A stretch of 50,697 nt of DNA, taken from assembly GCA_944387115.1 (NCBI GenBank), contig CALXDR010000006.1, positions 1-50,697 of the forward strand. Reading direction: 5' to 3'. Below the pieces are notes generated by a model. That model did no database searches. It saw only the letters and a program-made list of their open reading frames with translations, and was not told the DNA's origin. Made by a program: the position numbers and the translations under genes. Source of the DNA: an uncultured Oscillospiraceae bacterium. Its GTDB lineage: Bacteria > Bacillota > Clostridia > Oscillospirales > Oscillospiraceae. Positions 4,291-43,202 of the stretch are shown here, one piece after another (the stretch's first letter is position 1; the number at the start of each line of letters is the position of its first letter).

Positions 4291-4427
4291 GAAGTGCTGA
4301 GCCGTCGTGAGCAGGCTGGATGGACCGAAGTGAGGGATAAATTCCAGGGCGGGCGTAGCCCGACCGAATTTGTTCCGAGTCGGAGGGAAGTCAAGCGTTG
4401 CGGAGGGGAGCGAAGCGTGACAACAAA
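4291..4427 (+). repeat. structured repeat, array A, full unit A1
   Basis: This 137-bp unit starts GAAGTGCTGAGCC and ends near GCGAAGCGTGACAACA. Helix B (4334-4344 with 4366-4376) pairs over 11 positions with two G-U wobbles, and a small hairpin GGGC-GTA-GCCC (4351-4361) sits inside it. Helix A is imperfect here because the 5-prime half resembles unit 4 of array B while the 3-prime half resembles unit 2. The unit lies upstream of htrA and downstream of the AI-2E family gene. Confidence 0.85.
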
Positions 4428-4496
4428 GAAGTGCCGAACCCCCGGAGTAGCTCGGATGGACCGAAGCGAAGGGCAAAACCCAGCCCCCACCCCCCG
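4428..4496 (+). repeat. structured repeat, array A, truncated terminal unit A2
   Basis: It begins GAAGTGCCGAACC, exactly 137 bp after A1, and keeps the central GGATGGACCGAAGCGA motif. Then it departs into AGGGCAAAACCC and a C-rich end that touches the stop codon of the AI-2E family gene at 4497. The last unit of array B ends in a similar way. Confidence 0.75.
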
Positions 4497-5657
4497 TCAC
4501 TCCTGCCGTCCGCTTTTGAGCATCGCCTGCACATCCCGTGCCGCCAGCCCCAAATCATCCAGGGTGGGGCGGAACACCCCCAGCTTGCCCAGGTTGATGA
4601 ACACCAGCAGCAGCAAGGGGCCCACCACCATGCCCAGCACACCCCCCAGGCGCATACCCACATAGATGCCCACCAGGGACAAAATGGGGGACAGTCCGGT
4701 CTGGTCGCCCAGGATTTTCGGCTCACACAGCCTGCGAAACAGGGCAATGATGCCCCAAATCACCATCAGCTCCACTGCACCGCCGTACTCTCCCAAAATC
4801 AAATCCACCACCGCCCAGGGCACCATCACTGTGCCTGCCCCGATGATGGGGATAAAGTCCAGCACCGCCAATCCCGCCGCCAGCAGCAGGCTGTACGACT
4901 GTCCGATGAAGAAAAAGCCCACCATCAAAATGACAAACACACCCAGGGAGAGGAGCAATTGGCTCTTGATATAGCCGCCGAAGGCCTCCACAAAGAGCCT
5001 GCGCACCGTGCTGCCAAAAGCCCGCACATCCGCCGGAGCCCGCTCGGCCAGCTGAAAACGCAGCCGGGGATAATCTGCGGTGATGAAATAGCTGGCAGTG
5101 AGAAACACCACTGCCCCCACGGAGAAGCTGGACACCGAGGCCACCACATTGGGGGCTTGTCCCGCCATTTTCGTAACCCAGGCGGACAAATCCAGCTCCT
5201 CAATCCAATGCACCACCGCCTGGGTGATGTCCTCCCCCGTGGTCATGACCTGGTGAGGGAGCAGACCGCCCAGCAGATTATCCAGCCAGCTGGACACACT
5301 GTTAAAGGCGCTGGCGGCGGCATCCCGCAGCGTCTCCCAGTTTTCAAACAGCGCTCGAATCTGGGTAATCAGCGCCCAGCCCAATCCAAAGAGCACCCCG
5401 CCCGCAGCGGCAAAGAGGAGGAGGAGCACCACCATGGAGATGGACTTGCGGGAAATGGCCAGCTTGCGCTGGAGCCAGCGCACCAGGGGATTGAGCAGCC
5501 AGGCCACCACCAGCGCCAGCAAAAAGGGGTAGAACAGGGACACCAGCGGGGGCGCCGCATAGTACAGCACCAGCAGCACTGCAATCAGCAGTACGCCCCG
5601 GATGCTCAAGCGGCCCCACAGCCGCCAGCGTTCCCGCCAGGACAGGGGTTGTTCCAT
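4497..5657 (-). CDS. AI-2E family transporter (YtvI/TqsA-like integral membrane protein)
   Basis: This 386-residue protein has about eight hydrophobic segments in the layout of the AI-2E exporter family: paired N-terminal helices (GVLLIAVLLVLYYAA and LFYPFLLALVVAWLLNPLV), a long soluble loop with amphipathic helices, then the conserved PIIGAG region and C-terminal helices ending VGPLLLLVFINL. Members include TqsA (autoinducer-2), the sporulation protein YtvI and Na+/H+ antiporter-like proteins, so the substrate is open. The ATG at 5657 is preferred over a GTG at 5666 because GAGGTG lies seven bases before it. It follows the AEC gene by 63 bp and may be cotranscribed with it. Its stop codon abuts the terminal repeat unit at 4496. 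Confidence 0.85.
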   Translation of the reverse strand: MEQPLSWRERWRLWGRLSIRGVLLIAVLLVLYYAAPPLVSLFYPFLLALVVAWLLNPLVRWLQRKLAISRKSISMVVLLLLFAAAGGVLFGLGWALITQIRALFENWETLRDAAASAFNSVSSWLDNLLGGLLPHQVMTTGEDITQAVVHWIEELDLSAWVTKMAGQAPNVVASVSSFSVGAVVFLTASYFITADYPRLRFQLAERAPADVRAFGSTVRRLFVEAFGGYIKSQLLLSLGVFVILMVGFFFIGQSYSLLLAAGLAVLDFIPIIGAGTVMVPWAVVDLILGEYGGAVELMVIWGIIALFRRLCEPKILGDQTGLSPILSLVGIYVGMRLGGVLGMVVGPLLLLVFINLGKLGVFRPTLDDLGLAARDVQAMLKSGRQE

Positions 5658-5720
5658 TGCGCACACCTCATTTTCATCAAAAGTTTCCGCCGCCGGATGG
5701 GGGCAGCGGTTGTATCACAT

Positions 5721-6653
5721 TCACCCGCCGCACAGCGCTCTGGCCGCCAAAGTGACCACAGGCAGGGTGAGAATGCACAGCAGGGTGGAGAGGGTAACCA
5801 GCTTGGCGGCCAACGGGGCATCCTTCCCCAGCTTCTGAGCAAACAGACTGGTAATTCCCGCCACAGGGCACCCGGCAAGGATGACCGCCGCCAAAAAGGT
5901 GGGCTGCGCCAGGTGAAAGGGGAGGAGCACCGCCATAGTGATCAGGGGTACAACCAGCAGCTTCAGGGCCGAGACAAGGTAGAGCCGCCCATCCTTGAGC
6001 AGGGAGGGCAGGGATACCGCCGCCATCTGCGCCCCGATAATCACCATCGCCAGCGGGGTGTTGAGGGAGCCAAGATAGCCCACGGCCTCCATCACCGGGT
6101 CGGGCACAGGCACCTGAAGGAGGAAGAGCAGTATGGCCAGCCCGAAGCCCACCACACCGGGGTTGAGCAGCCCCTTCTTCACCGACACCTCATCCTTGCC
6201 CCCAATGAGGAGCATCCCATGGGTCCACACACATATATTAAACACTGCCAGGCTTGTGACAGTCAACAGCATTCCCTCCCCCTGGAGTACTGCCAGAATG
6301 AGGGGAATGCCCATAAAACCTGTATTCCCGTAAATGGAGGCAAAGCGTAAAATCCCCTGCACCCCTTCGGCGCTGCGCCGGAAGCACAGCTGCACCAGCA
6401 CCATATTCAACACATAGGTGCCCACCATCACCCCGGCGGCGATGAGCAGCTCACGCAGGGTGTCCGGGGTGGGCTGCTGCTGTAGAAATGTATCTATGAT
6501 AATGGCGGGCGCCACCACATACAGCAGCAGGGTGGACATCTGCGAGAGGGTCTGCTGGGTCAGCATCCCCCGCTTTGCCATAAAAAATCCCACTGCCATC
6601 ATCAAAAATAGGGTGAGGACGCTGCCGCCCACAACCTGAATCTCGTGCCACAT
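5721..6653 (-). CDS. AEC family transporter (auxin efflux carrier-type permease)
   Basis: This 310-residue protein has about ten transmembrane segments. The N-terminal repeat includes GFFMAKRGMLTQQTLSQMSTLLLYVVAPAII broken by short loops, and the C-terminal repeat includes VPLITMAVLLPF and AGCPVAGITSLFAQ, both typical of the AEC family. Bacterial members are secondary carriers, some for malate or other organic acids; the substrate here is unknown. AAGGAGG lies just before the ATG. A strong minus-strand promoter (6765-6737) reads into it, and the AI-2E family gene follows, so the two probably form one transcription unit divergent from the ABC exporter. Confidence 0.88.
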   Translation of the reverse strand: MWHEIQVVGGSVLTLFLMMAVGFFMAKRGMLTQQTLSQMSTLLLYVVAPAIIIDTFLQQQPTPDTLRELLIAAGVMVGTYVLNMVLVQLCFRRSAEGVQGILRFASIYGNTGFMGIPLILAVLQGEGMLLTVTSLAVFNICVWTHGMLLIGGKDEVSVKKGLLNPGVVGFGLAILLFLLQVPVPDPVMEAVGYLGSLNTPLAMVIIGAQMAAVSLPSLLKDGRLYLVSALKLLVVPLITMAVLLPFHLAQPTFLAAVILAGCPVAGITSLFAQKLGKDAPLAAKLVTLSTLLCILTLPVVTLAARALCGG

Positions 6654-6736
6654 CTTGTTTTGCCTCCTTGCCTGGATGTCACGCCTCGCCTGTTCACAAC
6701 GGCTCGGACGCTTCTTATGTCCAGAAATACCCCCCT

Positions 6737-6765
6737 ATTATAATCCCCGCCCTCTGAATTGACAA
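6737..6765 (-). promoter_or_regulatory. sigma-A promoter for the AEC transporter gene
   Basis: On the minus strand TTGTCA (6765-6760) and TATAAT (6742-6737) are 17 bp apart. The -35 hexamer shares bases 6760-6764 with the -35 of the opposing promoter. Confidence 0.65.
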
Positions 6766-6787
6766 TCACAAGGGAACACGATATACT
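6759..6787 (+). promoter_or_regulatory. sigma-A promoter for the ABC exporter gene
   Basis: A consensus TTGACA (6759-6764) is followed after 17 bp by TATACT (6782-6787). Transcription would begin near 6794, leaving a leader of about 180 bases before the ATG at 6977. Confidence 0.75.
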
Positions 6788-6793
6788 AGAGAA

Positions 6794-6976
6794 TCCATGG
6801 GATATTTTCGTGCAAGCTTCCAAGTGGGGCGCTGTGCGCAAAAGCTCCCAGGGTAATCCACGGGACCCCGCCTTGCACAGTCATTTGCTCCCAGCCGAGC
6901 GTGCTCCCCACCTCTCTGGGCCGGTGCCAACCTCACCGAAGGGCGTCCCATCTCAAGCAAAGGAGCGTGTGAACCA
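6794..6976 (+). other. long untranslated leader of the ABC exporter gene
   Basis: This 183-base stretch has no gene I can support. GTGCAAG (6810-6816) can pair with CTTGCAC (6872-6878), enclosing a GC-rich segment. I do not recognise a riboswitch. An ATG at 6797 opens a frame that overlaps the ABC gene but has no ribosome-binding site. Confidence 0.35.
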
Positions 6977-8728
6977 ATGGATCGAAAACAACGATTTCAA
7001 CGGGGCTATCTGTCCATCTTTCTGTCCTACTACCGGCCCCACCTGAGCCTGTTCATCCTGGATATGTGCTGTGCCCTGGGCATTGCTCTGGTGGATTTGG
7101 CCTTCCCCTATGCCTCCCGCATTGCCCTGAATCAGCTGCTGCCCCAGAATCTGTATGGGGCATTTTTTGCCGTAATGGCCGTGCTGCTGCTGGCTTATGC
7201 CCTGCGGGCCGGCATGAACTTCGTGGTCACCTACTGGGGGCATATGATGGGCGTGCGCATTGAGGCGGACATCCGCCGGGACCTGTTTGCCCATATGCAA
7301 AGCCTGTCCTTCTCCTTCTATGACCAGAACCGCACTGGACAGCTGATGAGCCGGGCCACCAACGATCTGTTTGAAATCACGGAGCTGGCCCACCACGGCC
7401 CGGAGGACTTGTTCATCTCCGTGATTACCCTGGTGGGCGCCTTTTGTCTGATGCTCTCCATCCAGTGGCGGCTGGCCCTGGTGGTGTTTGCCGTCATCCC
7501 CGTGTTTGTGGTGTTCACCATCATTCAGCGGCGGAGAATGGTGAAGGCCTCGGTGCAGGTCAAGCAGAATATGGCGGGCATCAACGGTCAGCTGGAATCC
7601 TCCATCTCCGGTATGCGCACCGCCAAGGCCTTCGCCAACGAGGCCCAGGAGAACGAGAAGTTCCGCACCACCAACAACCAGTTCAAGGGAGCCAAGCGGG
7701 ACTACTACAAGGCCATGGCAGGCTATATGGCGGGCCTGGAATTTACCCTGCCGGTGATGAACGTGCTCACCATTGCCGCCGGCGGCTATTTTATCATGCA
7801 GGGGCAGATGGATTTTGTAGACCTGGTGACCTTCTCCCTGTATATCTCCACCTTCCTCACCCCTGTGCGCAAGCTGGCCGCCTTTGTGGAGCAGTTCCTC
7901 AACGGCATGGCAGGCTTTAAGCGCTTTGTAGAGCTGATGCGTGTGGAGCCTGCGGTGCAGGACGCCCCGGACGCCGCCGTGATGCCCCCCGCCAAGGGCG
8001 ACATCCTGGTGGACGACGTCTCCTTCTCCTACAAGCCCGGGGAAGAGGTGCTCGAGCACATCTCCCTGCACATTCCCGCCGGGGAGACGGTGGCGGTGGT
8101 GGGCCCCTCCGGCGGCGGCAAGTCCACCCTGTGCCAGCTCATCCCCCGGTTCTACGATGTGACCGAGGGCCGCATTCTGGTGGACGGCCTGGATGTGCGT
8201 GCCGTCACCCAGCAGTCTCTGCGGCAGAACATCGGCATTGTGCAGCAGGATGTGTTCCTCTTTGCGGGCACCATCCTGGAGAACATCCGCTACGGCCGGC
8301 CGGATGCCACCGACGAAGAGGTGTTTGAGGCCGCCAGGCGGGCGGAAATCTACGAGGACATTATGGAGATGCCCCAGGGCTTCCAGACCTATGTGGGAGA
8401 GCGGGGCGTCATGCTCTCCGGCGGTCAGAAACAGCGGGTATCCATCGCCCGTATTTTCCTGAAAAACCCCGCCATCCTCATTCTGGACGAGGCCACCTCC
8501 GCCCTGGACTCTGTCACCGAGGCCCGCATTCAAAACGCCTTTGACGAGCTGGCAAAGGGTCGCACCACCCTGATCATTGCCCACCGCCTGTCCACCATCC
8601 GCAACGCCCACCGCATTTTGGTGGTGGATGAGCACCGCATTGTGGAGCAGGGCAACCATGAGGAGCTGCTGGCCGCCGGTGGGGAGTACGCCCAGCTGTA
8701 CAACGCCCAGAAAAGCGTGTCGGTATGA
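6977..8728 (+). CDS. ABC exporter half-transporter, fused permease and ATPase
   Basis: This 583-residue protein has six N-terminal transmembrane helices (to about residue 310) and a nucleotide-binding domain with Walker A GPSGGGKST (about 376-384), signature LSGGQKQR (about 480) and Walker B ILILDEATSALD (about 500), followed by the H-loop IIAHRLSTI. This is the type IV (MsbA/Sav1866/BmrA) exporter layout. It would act as a homodimer or pair with a second half not encoded beside it. Substrates in this family range from drugs to lipids and peptides, and none can be named. AAAGGAG precedes the ATG. Its stop overlaps the next start by four bases (ATGA), showing translational coupling to YlmH. 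Confidence 0.92.
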   Translation: MDRKQRFQRGYLSIFLSYYRPHLSLFILDMCCALGIALVDLAFPYASRIALNQLLPQNLYGAFFAVMAVLLLAYALRAGMNFVVTYWGHMMGVRIEADIRRDLFAHMQSLSFSFYDQNRTGQLMSRATNDLFEITELAHHGPEDLFISVITLVGAFCLMLSIQWRLALVVFAVIPVFVVFTIIQRRRMVKASVQVKQNMAGINGQLESSISGMRTAKAFANEAQENEKFRTTNNQFKGAKRDYYKAMAGYMAGLEFTLPVMNVLTIAAGGYFIMQGQMDFVDLVTFSLYISTFLTPVRKLAAFVEQFLNGMAGFKRFVELMRVEPAVQDAPDAAVMPPAKGDILVDDVSFSYKPGEEVLEHISLHIPAGETVAVVGPSGGGKSTLCQLIPRFYDVTEGRILVDGLDVRAVTQQSLRQNIGIVQQDVFLFAGTILENIRYGRPDATDEEVFEAARRAEIYEDIMEMPQGFQTYVGERGVMLSGGQKQRVSIARIFLKNPAILILDEATSALDSVTEARIQNAFDELAKGRTTLIIAHRLSTIRNAHRILVVDEHRIVEQGNHEELLAAGGEYAQLYNAQKSVSV

Positions 8729-9522
8729 ACAAGCGTGACCTGATTGCCCGGCACGCCGCCGGCCAGGAGGAGCGGATGGTGCTGGCCCGGGTGCTCGATC
8801 AGATGGAGCGCACCCAGCAGCGCTCCATCCCCAGCGCCACCCACTTCCTCTCCCCTGCCCAGCGGGCGGCGGCAGAAGGTTTGCTTGCCGCCTGCGGCCA
8901 CCCCAGCCATGTGTTCTGGGGTGGCTACGAGGGGGCGGAACGGACCATCTGCCAGTTCCTCCCTCCATGGATGGAGCCGGAGGATGCATACAGCCAAGCC
9001 GATTCCCCGCTGAGTGCCGTCGAGGCGGTGTATCCAAAGGGGGCGCAGCTCACCCACCGGGACCTGTTGGGCGGCGTGCTTGGCATTGGTCTGACCCGGG
9101 AGAAGGTGGGGGATCTGCTCCTCCTACCCGACCGTGCCCAAATTGTCATCCTGGCAGAGGCCGCCCCCATCCTCCTGTCCCAGTTTGACCAGGCGGGACG
9201 CTACCGGCTCAAGCTGCGCCCCATCTCCCTGGATGAGCTTTCGCCCGCCCCTGCCCAGGTCAAGGTGATTTCGGATACCGTGGCCACCTTGCGCCTGGAT
9301 GCGGTGCTCTCCTCCGCCTTCTCGCTGTCCCGGAGCAAAGCCGCCGACCTGATTGCCGGGGGACGGGTGTCCGTCAACCACCGGGAATGCTGTAAGGGGG
9401 ACAGGCTGGTGGCGGAAGGGGATGTGCTCACCTGCCGGGGACTGGGGAAATGCGTGCTCACCCAGGTGGGCGGACAGTCCCGCAAGGGGCGCACCATCAT
9501 TCAGCTGGAACGGTATCTGTAG
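8725..9522 (+). CDS. S4 RNA-binding domain protein, YlmH family
   Basis: This 265-residue protein has an N-terminal YlmH domain (about 1-180; GYEGAERTICQFLP is typical) and a C-terminal S4 domain (about 190-250; RLDAVLSSAF, SRSKAADLIAGGRVSVN). In Bacillus YlmH lies by the division gene cluster and, from published work, binds ribosomes and has been linked to rescue of stalled nascent chains. Here it sits instead behind an ABC exporter with a four-base overlap, so the usual ylm-divIVA neighbourhood is missing. The start is fixed by the overlap. Membership of the family is confident; its role here is inferred from homologues. Confidence 0.88.
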   Translation: MNKRDLIARHAAGQEERMVLARVLDQMERTQQRSIPSATHFLSPAQRAAAEGLLAACGHPSHVFWGGYEGAERTICQFLPPWMEPEDAYSQADSPLSAVEAVYPKGAQLTHRDLLGGVLGIGLTREKVGDLLLLPDRAQIVILAEAAPILLSQFDQAGRYRLKLRPISLDELSPAPAQVKVISDTVATLRLDAVLSSAFSLSRSKAADLIAGGRVSVNHRECCKGDRLVAEGDVLTCRGLGKCVLTQVGGQSRKGRTIIQLERYL

Positions 9523-9562
9523 CCTCTGCCCTGTGTATTTTGAACCATAGGAGGATTTTGCT

Positions 9563-9772
9563 ATGATGACCCAGGAGAAAATTGACCGCATCAATGAATT
9601 TGCCCGCCGTGTCAAGGCCGGGGAGACCCTCACCCCCGAAGAGCTGGAGGAGCGGGACGCCCTGCGCCGGGAGTATGTGGCCAGCGTGAAGGCCAGCCTG
9701 GTGGGCCACCTGGAGAACACCTACCTGGTGGAGCCGGACGGAACGAAGCATAAATTACCCAAGAAGCGCTGA
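9563..9772 (+). CDS. DUF896 (UPF0291, YnzC-like) small protein
   Basis: This 69-residue protein carries the DUF896 pattern: KIDRINEFARRVKAGE, then LTPEELEERDALRREYV, and an end NTYLVEPDG. YnzC-like proteins are short helical-hairpin proteins of unknown role, some linked to the SOS response. AGGAGG lies eight bases before the ATG at 9563, with a second ATG one codon later. The last codons (KKR-stop) coincide with the first bases of the repeat array: the TGA stop is the one inside the repeat motif GCGCTGAGCC. The original C-terminus may therefore have been altered when the repeat arrived. Confidence 0.88.
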   Translation: MMTQEKIDRINEFARRVKAGETLTPEELEERDALRREYVASVKASLVGHLENTYLVEPDGTKHKLPKKR

Positions 9773-9897
9773 GCCGTTGCGAACAGCCCGAATGGACCGA
9801 AGCGAGGGATACAAACCAAGGACGGCATAGCCGGCCTGTTTGTGTCCCGAGTCGGAGGGAAGCCGGGCGTCGTGAGCAGGCGAAGCGTGACATCTAA
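9763..9897 (+). repeat. structured repeat, array B unit 1
   Basis: This 135-bp unit begins GAAGCGCTGAGCC, inside the end of the DUF896 gene. Helix A pairs GCCCG (9786-9790) with CGGGC (9864-9868). Helix B pairs 9806-9816 with 9838-9848 over 11 bp with one U-G wobble. A CGGC-ATA-GCCG hairpin (9823-9833) is nested inside. It ends with GCGAAGCGTGACATCTAA. Confidence 0.88.
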
Positions 9898-10033
9898 GAA
9901 GCGCTGAGCCCCCGGAGCAGCTTGACTGGACCGCAGCGAGGGATAAATTTTAGGACGGGCGCAGCCCGGCCAAATTTGTCCCGAGTCGGAGGGAAGTCAA
10001 GCGTGGCGGAGGGGAGCGAAGCGTGACATCTAA
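9898..10033 (+). repeat. structured repeat, array B unit 2
   Basis: This 136-bp unit has the same boundary motifs as unit 1 but different helix sequences. Helix A pairs GCTTGACT (9920-9927) with AGTCAAGC (9995-10002). Helix B pairs 9940-9950 with 9972-9982, again with one U-G wobble at the same position. The inner hairpin is CGGGC-GCA-GCCCG (9956-9968). Confidence 0.88.
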
Positions 10034-10220
10034 GAAGCGCTGAGCCATATCAAAAAAGTCAAAGGACTTTTTTGAGGGATGCAGGGGAAACAGGGTTCGA
10101 TTCCTTCGGAATTGTCACCCTCTTTCCCCTGAGCAGAGTGTTTTCCGAGGCGCATGTCCCCGGAAAACACGAAATTCCACTTTATTTCGCCCCCTGCGGG
10201 TGCGAAACTCTGTGAGACAC
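10034..10220 (+). repeat. array B unit 3, a different 187-bp multi-hairpin module
   Basis: It shares only the start motif GAAGCGCTGAGCC with its neighbours. Inside are an 11-bp hairpin (10050-10060 with 10065-10075), a three-tier hairpin spanning 10082-10131 (CAGGGGAAA/TTTCCCCTG, AGGGT/ACCCT, ATTCC/GGAAT), a 10-bp hairpin (10138-10147 with 10161-10170) and a short CGAAAT/ATTTCG hairpin. No coding potential is convincing. Confidence 0.8.
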
Positions 10221-10353
10221 GAAGCGCTGAGCCGTCGTGAGCAGGCTGGATGGAGCGAAGTGAGGAATAAAACCCAGGTGGGCGAAGCCACCCGGTTTTG
10301 TTCCGAATCGGAGGGAAGCCAGCCGTTGCGAACAGGCGAAGCGTGACAACAGC
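10221..10353 (+). repeat. structured repeat, array B unit 4
   Basis: This 133-bp unit pairs GGCTGG (10244-10249) with CCAGCC (10319-10324) as helix A, and 10264-10274 with 10294-10304 as an 11-bp helix B with one U-G wobble. The inner loop contains GGCGAAGCC. It ends GCGAAGCGTGACAACAGC, slightly unlike units 1 and 2. Confidence 0.88.
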
Positions 10354-10944
10354 GAAGCGCTGAGCCGTTGCGAACAGCCCGGATGGACCGAAGCGAGGGA
10401 TACAAACCAAGGACGGCATAGCCGGCCTGTTTGTGTCCCGAGTCGGAGGGAAGCCGGGCGTCGTGAGCAGGCGAAGCGTGACATCTAAGAAGCGCTGAGC
10501 CCCCGGAGCAGCTTGACTGGACCGCAGCGAGGGATAAATTTTAGGACGGGCGCAGCCCGGCCAAATTTGTCCCGAGTCGGAGGGAAGTCAAGCGTGGCGG
10601 AGGGGAGCGAAGCGTGACATCTAAGAAGCGCTGAGCCATATCAAAAAAGTCAAAGGACTTTTTTGAGGGATGCAGGGGAAACAGGGTTCGATTCCTTCGG
10701 AATTGTCACCCTCTTTCCCCTGAGCAGAGTGTTTTCCGAGGCGCATGTCCCCGGAAAACACGAAATTCCACTTTATTTCGCCCCCTGCGGGTGCGAAACT
10801 CTGTGAGACACGAAGCGCTGAGCCGTCGTGAGCAGGCTGGATGGAGCGAAGTGAGGAATAAAACCCAGGTGGGCGAAGCCACCCGGTTTTGTTCCGAATC
10901 GGAGGGAAGCCAGCCGTTGCGAACAGGCGAAGCGTGACATCTAA
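10354..10944 (+). repeat. second copy of the four-unit cassette (units 5-8)
   Basis: Units start at 10354, 10489, 10625 and 10812 and repeat units 1-4 in order with a constant offset of 591 bp. By eye the copies agree except for one base in unit 1 versus unit 5 (CCCGAATGG versus CCCGGATGG) and the final few bases of units 4 and 8. Confidence 0.9.
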
Positions 10945-11012
10945 GAAGCGCTGAGCCCCGGTCGCAGCCCGGATGGACCGAAGTGAGGAAGGGTCAAAGC
11001 CCAACCGAATCC
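10945..11012 (+). repeat. truncated terminal unit of array B
   Basis: It begins GAAGCGCTGAGCC and keeps CCCGGATGGACCGAAGTGAGG, then diverges into AGGGTCAAAGCCC and a C-rich end. It resembles the truncated unit that ends array A at 4428-4496. The right edge is approximate. Confidence 0.7.
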
Positions 11013-11036
11013 CTCCCACCCTCCACAAAAGTGTCC

Positions 11037-11084
11037 AAACAAAAAGCAATGCCGTCTGCTGTGCAGACGGCATTGCTTTTTTTG
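11037..11084. terminator. bidirectional intrinsic terminator between array B and csp
   Basis: AGCAATGCCGTCTGC (11045-11059) pairs with GCAGACGGCATTGCT (11063-11077). It has T7 on the + side and A5 on the left, which reads as a T-run on the minus strand. It can end both the rightward DUF896/array transcript and the leftward csp transcript. Confidence 0.88.
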
Positions 11085-11094
11085 ACCAGATAAA

Positions 11095-11313
11095 TTAGGC
11101 CTCGGTCTGAGCGACCACGTTGGTGGCACGCACGCCCTTGGCGCCGCGGGGATCGGGCTCGGTCTCGAAGGTGACCTGCTGACCCTCCAGCAGCTTCTTG
11201 TAGCCGTCGGCCACAATGGCGGAGAAGTGCACGAACACGTCCTCGGAGCCGTCATCGGGGGTGATGAAGCCATAGCCCTTCTCAGCGTTGAACCATTTCA
11301 CGATACCAGTCAT
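11095..11313 (-). CDS. cold-shock domain protein (CspA family)
   Basis: This 72-residue protein is a single OB-fold cold-shock domain with RNP1-like KGYGFITP and RNP2-like DVFVHFSAI motifs. Such proteins bind single-stranded RNA and DNA, melt RNA hairpins at low temperature and can prevent transcription termination. The length is slightly above the usual 66-70 residues, with extra residues in the loop [16 protein letters not shown]. The ATG at 11313 follows AGGAGG. A consensus promoter lies at 11463-11435, leaving a 5-prime leader of about 115 bases that contains an intrinsic-terminator hairpin. It is followed by the bidirectional terminator at 11037. Confidence 0.95.
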
Positions 11314-41270: not shown

Positions 41271-43202
41271 TCAGCCCTCCCCCGCATCCGTGCCGGGCGC
41301 AGGGGGCTCAACCGGGTCCGGGGTGGGCGCAGGTGTGGGTGCAGGCGTAGGTGCGGGCGTGGGAACCGGCGTAGGCGCCGGAGTGGGTGCGGGCGTAGGC
41401 GTAGGCGTCGGGGTAGGTGCGGGCGTGGGTGCCGGTGTGGGTGCAGGAGTGGGAGTTGCCACCGGTGCCGGGGTAGGCGTTGCCACCGGCGCCGGAGTGG
41501 GGGTGGCAACAGGGGCGGGGGTGGGGGTGGCCACAGGGGTCGGGGTGGTGGTCACGCCGCCGCTGCCCAGGGGGGTGCCGTCCGGGTTGAGCCCCAGGCT
41601 GGCCGCATCGGCGGGATTGAACAAAATCACCTTGTCCCGCTTGGAATAGCGGCTCTTGTTTTCAAAGGTGCGGGAGCGCAGACTTCCGTCGGCATTGTAC
41701 ACCAGCCGGTACACCTCCACGGTGTAGCCGGTATATGGCGTGGTCTTTACCTTGGTGGTGCCCCGGGGAATGGAGCTGTCCGGCTGATACACCGTCTCCC
41801 AGGGAACGGTATCCAGGGTATTGCGCTCGGTTTTCACGTAGGAACCGTCGGTTTTGGTTCCGTAGAACTGCACCGTCAGCCTGCCCCCGCTGACATAGGA
41901 CACAATTTTAATGGGGAAGCCCGTGTTGTTGCGGAACTTGTAATCCAGGCTGGGGTAGTACACCGTGGCGTCCAGCCCGTTGGGCACATACCCCACGATG
42001 AAGGCATGGTTGGCCCGGTATACAATCTCCAGGTTGGCGTACACGGTGCAGTAGTAGATGGAGGAGGACACCTGGCAGATGCCGCCGCCCACCATGTCCA
42101 CCGTCTCACCGTTGGCGTAGCCGGTGGAGGTCTGGTATCCGTTGGCCACCGAGGGGTTGCCGATTGCCCCCAGATAGGAGAACACCTGACCGGGCATAAT
42201 TACCTTGCCGTTGCAGGAGGAGGCCGCCAGGGCCACGTTGTGCCCACGGGTGGCCACACCGTCCAAAGGCGTCACCACCGAGGAGAGCAAATCCTGGTAC
42301 AGCTGTCCCGACACCCCGCTGAAGTCGGGCTGGGTCTGGATGAGGGGGATTTTGCAGCTCTCCCCCGGAGCAGTCTGGTCCAGCAGCTCCTGGGCGGCGG
42401 CAGTGTCAATGCGCACGCCCACCACACCGGGAACCAGCTTTCCGCTGTCATCCCGATAGGGATTTTGGGGCTCCACATAAACCGCCTCGCTCAGCGCCTG
42501 GGCGTCCACCTTCTCGGCGGGAATCTCCCTGGTGGTGACGGCCAGCTTCTCCCGGCCCTCCGCCAGCGCCTGCTCCACCTGGAGGAAGAGCGCATCCACA
42601 TCCACCTCTGCCCCCGCCACGCCGCTGGTGACGGTGACTGCGTCTGTACCTACCTCATAAGTATATGCGCTGGGGGCCACATACACAGCCTTGGCCACAT
42701 CCTCAATGATTTCCCTAGCCTGCTCCTCACCCTCCTGGGTAAAGGCGGCGGCGGTGAGGGGCAGCGTCTGGCTGTGCTTCTCCAGCCCCAGCCAGATCAG
42801 CCCCAGGTGGAAAAAGGACTGCTGTGCTTTGTGCTCCATGCCGCTCTCCACAGCGCCCTGGGGGTCGGCTTCCAGCAGACTGCCGGAGAGGGAGACCTGC
42901 TGCCCCTCCCCGTACTCCAAAATCAGCGCCCGCTGGCTGAGGTAGTCGTCCATATACCCCTCTATCTGCTCCACGGCGCTTTCCTGGGATACCTTGCCCA
43001 AATTCACCGATACCTGACCGTCCTCACTGGCGGCAACTGTACCTGGCAGCAGGCAGCCATTCCCCTGCACCCACCGGCACAGCCCCAGGTAGGCCCCACC
43101 CAGGACAACCGCCAGCGCCAGCACGGCAGCCCCCGCAATGAGTGCCGCCGGGGGAATGGGCAGCTTGCGCCACACAATCCCCTTGGACTTTTGTTCATTC
43201 AT
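41271..43202 (-). CDS. VanW family cell-surface protein with a Pro/Thr-rich tail
   Basis: This 643-residue protein has a signal-anchor helix (about 18-42), a peptidoglycan-binding-like region (YoaR/PF12229-like, two halves between about 60 and 290), the VanW domain ([47 protein letters not shown]), and a G5-like stretch. About 80 residues of alternating Thr-Pro-Ala end the protein. VanW proteins are cell-wall associated; their role is not settled. The ATG at 43202 follows GGAGG; the frame extends further upstream without a ribosome-binding site. The tail probably spans the wall. It is cotranscribed with DUF2461. Confidence 0.88.
41310..41556 (-). repeat. imperfect short tandem repeats coding for the VanW Pro/Thr/Ala tail
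   Basis: On the + strand this is a run of GTGGGTGCAGGC and GTAGGCGTAGGT-like imperfect 6- and 12-base units. Read from the minus strand they give PTPA and ATPTPAPV motifs. The reading frame stays open. Such tracts are prone to changes in copy number. Confidence 0.8.

Follow-up and report, generated by a model that had tools for sequence, protein, structure and literature searches.

A repeat array behind the DUF896 gene

The stretch of DNA analysed here, called the window below, comprises the 50,697 nucleotides of contig CALXDR010000006.1 (assembly GCA_944387115.1), one of 97 contigs in the 1.68-Mb genome (94.65% complete) of an uncultured, gut-type Oscillospiraceae bacterium. Our subject is a structured repeat of about 135 nt, the type I unit, which forms an array between a DUF896 gene on the + strand (9563..9772; PF05979, E 4.4e-16) and a convergent cold-shock protein gene on the - strand (11095..11313; PF00313, E 3.4e-28), the latter serving as the locus marker when filled and empty sites were compared. 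The start of the array overlaps the last codons and stop of the DUF896 gene, and the stop codon itself, TGA (9770-9772), is provided by the first unit. A terminator-like hairpin (11041..11083, assigned to no strand, its core found in the scan and its extent drawn by eye) lies 3' of the array in the interval before the cold-shock gene, so that the array would be in the 3' untranslated region.

All units of the array lie on the + strand. Type I units at 9763..9892 (147.3 bits with the covariance model R1; helix A GCCCG/CGGGC) and 9898..10028 (130.1 bits; GCTTGAC/GTCAAGC) are followed by a type II unit, a different structured module, 187 nt long and with several hairpins (10034..10220; -79.5 kcal/mol, z -6.47) and the same left-end motif as type I, GAAGCGCTGAGC, and then by a third type I unit at 10221..10348 (136.8 bits; GGCTGG/CCAGCC). 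This four-unit block (9763-10353) recurs at 10354-10944 as a 591-bp tandem duplication with five differences, four of them in the last spacer: the second copies of the type I units occupy 10354..10483 (148.3 bits), 10489..10619 (130.1 bits) and 10812..10939 (136.8 bits), that of the type II unit 10625..10811 (nhmmer E 1.4e-56), and a truncated type I left end (10945..10990, start motif at 10945, extent judged by eye, no R1 match listed) follows. The duplication is possibly recent, or possibly an assembly effect, and because of it the window's independent copies are fewer than apparent.

A further type I unit lies on the + strand at 4291..4422 (130.8 bits), with a partial unit right after it that reaches, by eye, to about 4483. 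An earlier note on this DNA had counted it as a full unit. A unit is indeed present, but it is a chimera that begins GAAGTG and whose arms come from different subfamilies (left GGCTGG, right GTCAAGC); its helix A is unpaired, and it folds with z -1.89, against -4.82, -6.03 and -5.14 for three other folded units. The family that the note described is nonetheless real, and its account of the boundary motifs, the helix A and B sequences and the triloops agrees with what we find. Elsewhere in the window, positions 41296-41547 hold GC-rich 12-nt tandem repeats of another family, perhaps a low-complexity coding stretch.

Model R1 was built from A1, an alignment (MAFFT) of 39 type I units of the window's genome, and in that genome it finds 132 copies (E <= 0.001), a lower bound, with 150 of 1225 candidates scored. 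The 13-mer start motif GAAGCGCTGAGCC has 88 matches there with at most one mismatch, and its reversed pattern has none. Type I units measure 127-133 nt and have five helices. Five other contigs of the same genome start or stop inside or beside copies; the repeat may thus fragment the assembly, and the copy number may be underestimated.

Type II units are also found in numbers (55 pieces by nhmmer in the fetched loci of the window's genome), and in folding they have no strand bias, the + strand being the better one in 13 of 23. Arrays combine the two types with spacers of about 5 nt, which in some arrays are uniform and match the left flank of the first unit and in others are not. Recombination would reshuffle such arrays.

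Covariation and strand of the type I fold

The + strand of the type I unit folds into two stems, P1 (which closes the structure) and P2, and a long hairpin, P4/P5; internal loops join them, two of which have opposed G-A pairs by eye. Covariation was tested on a hand-made structure of 32 pairs. Across the 39 units of A1, 95.0% of 1246 cells are paired, two-sided changes occur at 16 of the 32 pairs, and the covariation score reaches 0.421, compared with 0.193 +- 0.009 for shuffled alignments and no more than 0.120 for slid controls; further pair types (35) do not exceed the shuffles (38.8). A2, which holds 142 units from other genomes and is biased towards the model because it was fitted to R1, is 89.8% paired, with two-sided changes at 28 of the 32 pairs, a score of 0.417 against 0.128 shuffled, and 110 further pair types against 82.3. 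P1 itself covaries, with C-G replaced by U-A in 4 of 39 units at one pair and U-A by C-G in 11 of 39 at another. The U-G wobble that the earlier note found in all copies is kept in those of the window, but it is not universal: among the 39 units the position is UG in 32, CG in 6 and UA in 1.

Among 114 distinct units of the window's genome, 107 fold better on the + strand, as do 126 of 127 from elsewhere. Non-canonical cells are likewise asymmetric, with G-U exceeding A-C by 170:69 in the window's genome (two conserved wobble pairs excluded) and by 208:71 in A2 (one excluded). Both the strand asymmetry and the G-U excess are what a folded + strand predicts, and together with the covariation in A1 and A2 they support the earlier reading of selection for a + strand RNA fold. 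The use of wobble pairs, and the sense-strand location behind genes described below, lead us to infer that the folded molecule is RNA rather than single-stranded DNA.

The earlier note recognised no named family. Rfam 15 gave no match over the whole window at the gathering cut-off, nor over 9700-11050 even at E up to 5, and a scan of loci from 19 relatives left the units unmatched, its sole match being a neighbouring lysine riboswitch; a known RNA family was accordingly rejected. One unit shares its locus with a lysine riboswitch, and three lie within what appear by eye to be T-box leaders (GTGGTACCGC). The architecture of the family is variable, judging from eight longer units of 162-184 nt in which P4 is preceded or followed by an additional hairpin domain. 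Five further units adjoin another repeated sequence, which contains CCACGGTTCCACCCTGCTT.

Placement at stop codons, distribution and signs of mobility

The array and stop-codon analyses used 121 of the 132 R1 matches (11 contig-end or weak partial matches were excluded), and the nearest gene to the left was found with a simple coding-score gene caller. Of 72 arrays in the window's genome, 55 had 400 nt of left flank, and 34 of these had an upstream gene on the same strand. In 26 of the 34 the unit begins from -10 to +4 nt relative to the gene end (the stop counted as part of the gene), and in the remaining eight it lies at least 35 nt away. Other genomes repeat the pattern: 51 of 99 units have a same-strand upstream gene, 31 of the 51 start at -10 to +5, and the next begins at 32, so that distances of 6-31 nt are empty in both sets. 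The -10 class (nine cases in the window's genome, two in others) is that in which, as in DUF896, the element's own stop terminates the gene; without it, 17 of 25 arrays and 29 of 49 units, respectively, are still at the gene end. A looser rule places 35 of 107 other-genome units at a stop, compared with 11 among 1880 positions drawn at random from these loci. Right ends have no comparable peak, the nearest gene lying 74 nt away in the window's genome and 10 nt away in others; in the former this side is less clean, since distances start at the last type I unit and so disregard any type II or partial units beyond it.

The repeat is patchily distributed within one family, Oscillospiraceae by the named records, and its copy number swings widely between genomes. 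Units occur in 28 of 60 relatives, all within the window's genus (28 of 37 genomes) and none in 23 genomes from other families of the order. At the family level units occur in 33 of 250 genomes, from 17 of 106 genera, and in a class-wide sample in 2 of 291 genomes, both of the same genus; these two surveys applied tighter filters, with few candidates scored in each genome, and may have missed weak carriers. A pattern scan of named genomes gave at least 105 loci (100 handled together, the other five separately); of the 80 titles among the matches listed, those that name a group name Oscillospiraceae, Flavonifractor, Pseudoflavonifractor, Galloscillospira or Clostridiales. Flavonifractor sp. An10 and Pseudoflavonifractor phocaeensis An901, both culturable, are among the carriers listed. 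The plasmids of PLSDB and the phages of INPHARED yielded no match. Three IMG/VR contigs carry the pattern.

Orthologous loci are found both filled and empty. At the DUF896 locus, examined in 30 of the 39 genus genomes that have ylmH, R1 finds no unit in the 29 other genomes; in 20 of the 29 the distance from DUF896 to a convergent cold-shock gene is 61-188 nt, and in the window the gap is 1323 nt and holds the array. In one relative a 406-nt gap after DUF896 holds, by eye, a reverse type II-like piece. Behind infA (35 genomes with the gene, 30 loci examined), an R1-confirmed unit follows the stop in five genomes and is absent in 25, several of which contain other long sequences at this place; the five units occupy an identical position and may therefore be one old insertion. 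Among 85 isolated units, 12 share at least 5 nt between left and right flank, against 4.6 expected, and six share 6 nt, against about one expected; two of the flank-sharing units have identical flanks and a third has similar ones.

A proposed mobile repeat in messenger RNA tails

We think it reasonably likely that the repeat is a family of small, non-autonomous, RNA-structured mobile repeats, which would act much as stop-proximal REP (repetitive extragenic palindromic) and ERIC (enterobacterial repetitive intergenic consensus) elements do. Its dispersal, covarying fold, strand asymmetry, stop-codon excess and filled or empty orthologous loci were all calculated directly, and the position at stop codons, the signs of mobility and the second module go beyond the earlier note. 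Units often sit at, or provide, the stop codon of same-strand genes, and are joined with type II units in tandem arrays. We posit that an enzyme acting in trans would move them; that each would be transcribed with its host gene, at the 3' end of the message; and that the fold, close to the ribosome as it terminates, could alter termination, or the decay of the upstream gene's mRNA. That the repeat rides in messenger RNA tails is probable from its frequent start at a gene's stop codon.

A number of observations weigh against this proposal. By one rule 92 of 158 units lie away from stops, and the stop counts are themselves limited by a simple gene caller trained on just 11 reading frames of the window. 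In 9 of 107 units a reading frame is called to end 16-20 nt inside the unit, which suggests that some insertions may cut genes, as may some in the -10 class. Preservation is no better at stop codons than elsewhere (profile bits p = 0.10, minimum free energy p = 0.57; 107 units), a result that fits an insertion preference over a function tied to position, without proving it. There is also no target duplication of fixed length over all units, and where AGTAA flanks both sides of the infA unit in one genome, the left copy is 3 nt off the unit; nor are there perfect terminal inverted repeats, the ends GAAGCGCTGAGCC and GGCGAAGCGTGACA pairing just as the interrupted P1. The mobiliser search, which covered the five domains Y1_Tnp, RVT_1, rve, DDE_Tnp_1 and TnpB, gave no match in the window's genome, of which about 5% may be missing. 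Neither an autonomous version of kilobase size nor a gene between half-units was found in 307 loci (1.5 Mb, with a 5-kb limit); the largest gap between a left and a right half is 177 nt, and 80 left and 20 right halves have no partner.

One could suppose instead that the host has selected the repeat as a cis-regulatory RNA, in which case copies near stops would be retained for their influence on termination, on mRNA decay or on re-initiation of the preceding gene. Sense-orientation placement at stop codons speaks for such a role, as does the unit that persists behind infA in five genomes; moreover, one-sided private changes keep pairing in 20 of 26 cases at one clustering threshold (0.42 expected, p = 3e-4). 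At the two other thresholds, however, the counts are 7 of 13 (p = 0.15) and 21 of 39 (p = 0.08), and since the test depends on the threshold, most of the covariation may stem from the source copies and not from selection once a unit has inserted. A patchy distribution with large swings in copy number, the 25 of 30 infA loci that do without a unit, the finding that units at stops are no better preserved and the chimeric 4291 unit with its broken helix A likewise sit poorly with a regulatory role, which we regard as unlikely. Most compensatory changes separate subfamilies, that is, source copies, and this speaks for a miniature inverted-repeat transposable element (MITE) operating at the DNA level, in which a transposase reads a single-stranded hairpin, for example at replication, so that the fold serves movement rather than RNA, and a preference for A+T leads to stops in GC-rich genomes. 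G-T pairs would help single-stranded DNA too, and the 5-6-nt flank matches of some units are in keeping with such an element. The left flanks show T at -6 and A at -5 and -4 even among units not called locked to a stop, and the last 8 nt of the flank contain a stop triplet in 36 of 98 of these units (short genes missed by the rule, such as infA, included), compared with 8-19 of 98 in control windows; behind opposite-strand genes, reverse-complement stop triplets occur in 9 of 30 units (controls 1-4 of 30). On the other hand, + strand stop triplets behind those same genes (10 of 30) fall within their controls (3-11 of 30), Y1, rve, DDE_Tnp_1 and TnpB were not found in the window's genome, and the 6-31 nt behind gene ends are free of units although A+T-rich terminators would be expected there. 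A general preference for A+T may contribute, and alone would be insufficient for the peak and the empty range; we consider a purely DNA-level element improbable.

It is conceivable, if distinctly doubtful, that the site is chosen via translation, the repeat integrating at the stops of sense genes by reading termination itself (for instance by way of the mRNA, or through a cut tied to the ribosome) and not a DNA motif, and spreading without the common transposases or a reverse transcriptase. Less credible still is a REP moved by its REP-associated tyrosine transposase (RAYT), or a repeat that arises as a side effect of the enzyme of a group II intron or retron. REPs are short palindromes of about 20-40 nt, those of REP/RAYT systems with a conserved tetranucleotide beside the hairpin, and the present unit is several times that length. 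Y1_Tnp was found in only 2 of 16 genus genomes with at least ten unit matches, as against 7 of 9 with none, and RVT_1 was not found in 7 of the 16, the window's genome included. Such an origin does have in its favour an RNA-like fold and a stop-proximal placement resembling that of E. coli REP as the relevant part of PMC12306157 presents it. REP/RAYT was rejected on the counts of Y1 (none in the window's genome, 2 of 16 high-copy genomes) and on length, and a derivative of a group II intron or retroelement is disfavoured by the absence of RVT_1 matches from the window's genome at its 94.65% completeness.

The mobile, RNA-structured repeat that we propose has counterparts in better-known systems. 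In E. coli, a REP no more than 15 nt from a stop codon stalls ribosomes, according to the passage of PMC12306157 that cites Liang 2015; the likeness lies in a structured repeat behind genes, a share of which is within 15 nt of the stop, while the present unit, at about 135 nt, has several helices, forms tandem arrays with a second module, sometimes provides the stop codon and lacks a Y1/RAYT match in its genome. ERIC (also IRU or RU-1) is intergenic, of similar size and closed by an end-to-end stem, and PMC2229807, in the portion that bears on this, reports an involvement of RNase E and an orientation-dependent effect on the upstream transcript; our repeat differs in being GC-rich, in lacking TA ends and matching inverted repeats, in its stop-codon peak and in its confinement to one family among the genomes searched. 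Pneumococcal BOX elements are composites as well, built from modules for which an RNA structure is predicted, and are over-represented where genes converge (PMC3049150, relevant sections); by that description they are set apart by boxA-B-C in place of type I and type II units, and the same sections describe no stop-codon peak. With MITEs such as ERIC, RUP and Correia the repeat shares short length, lack of coding capacity, high copy number and structure, and not terminal inverted repeats. Its action would be most like that of stop-proximal REP and ERIC, and its build appears most like that of BOX. The family is undescribed in the literature searched, mostly texts other than subscription papers and supplements; we class it as a new variety among the small non-autonomous repeats and, by the features tested, no RAYT-type REP.

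R1 offers a means of annotating the repeat, which may account for contig breaks in assemblies of these bacteria. The question is also raised of how a repeat reaches stop codons in a genome in which none of five common transposase and reverse-transcriptase domains was found. Finally, a covarying fold that starts at stop codons lets the effects of structure at termination sites on ribosomes and mRNA ends be asked about outside E. coli.

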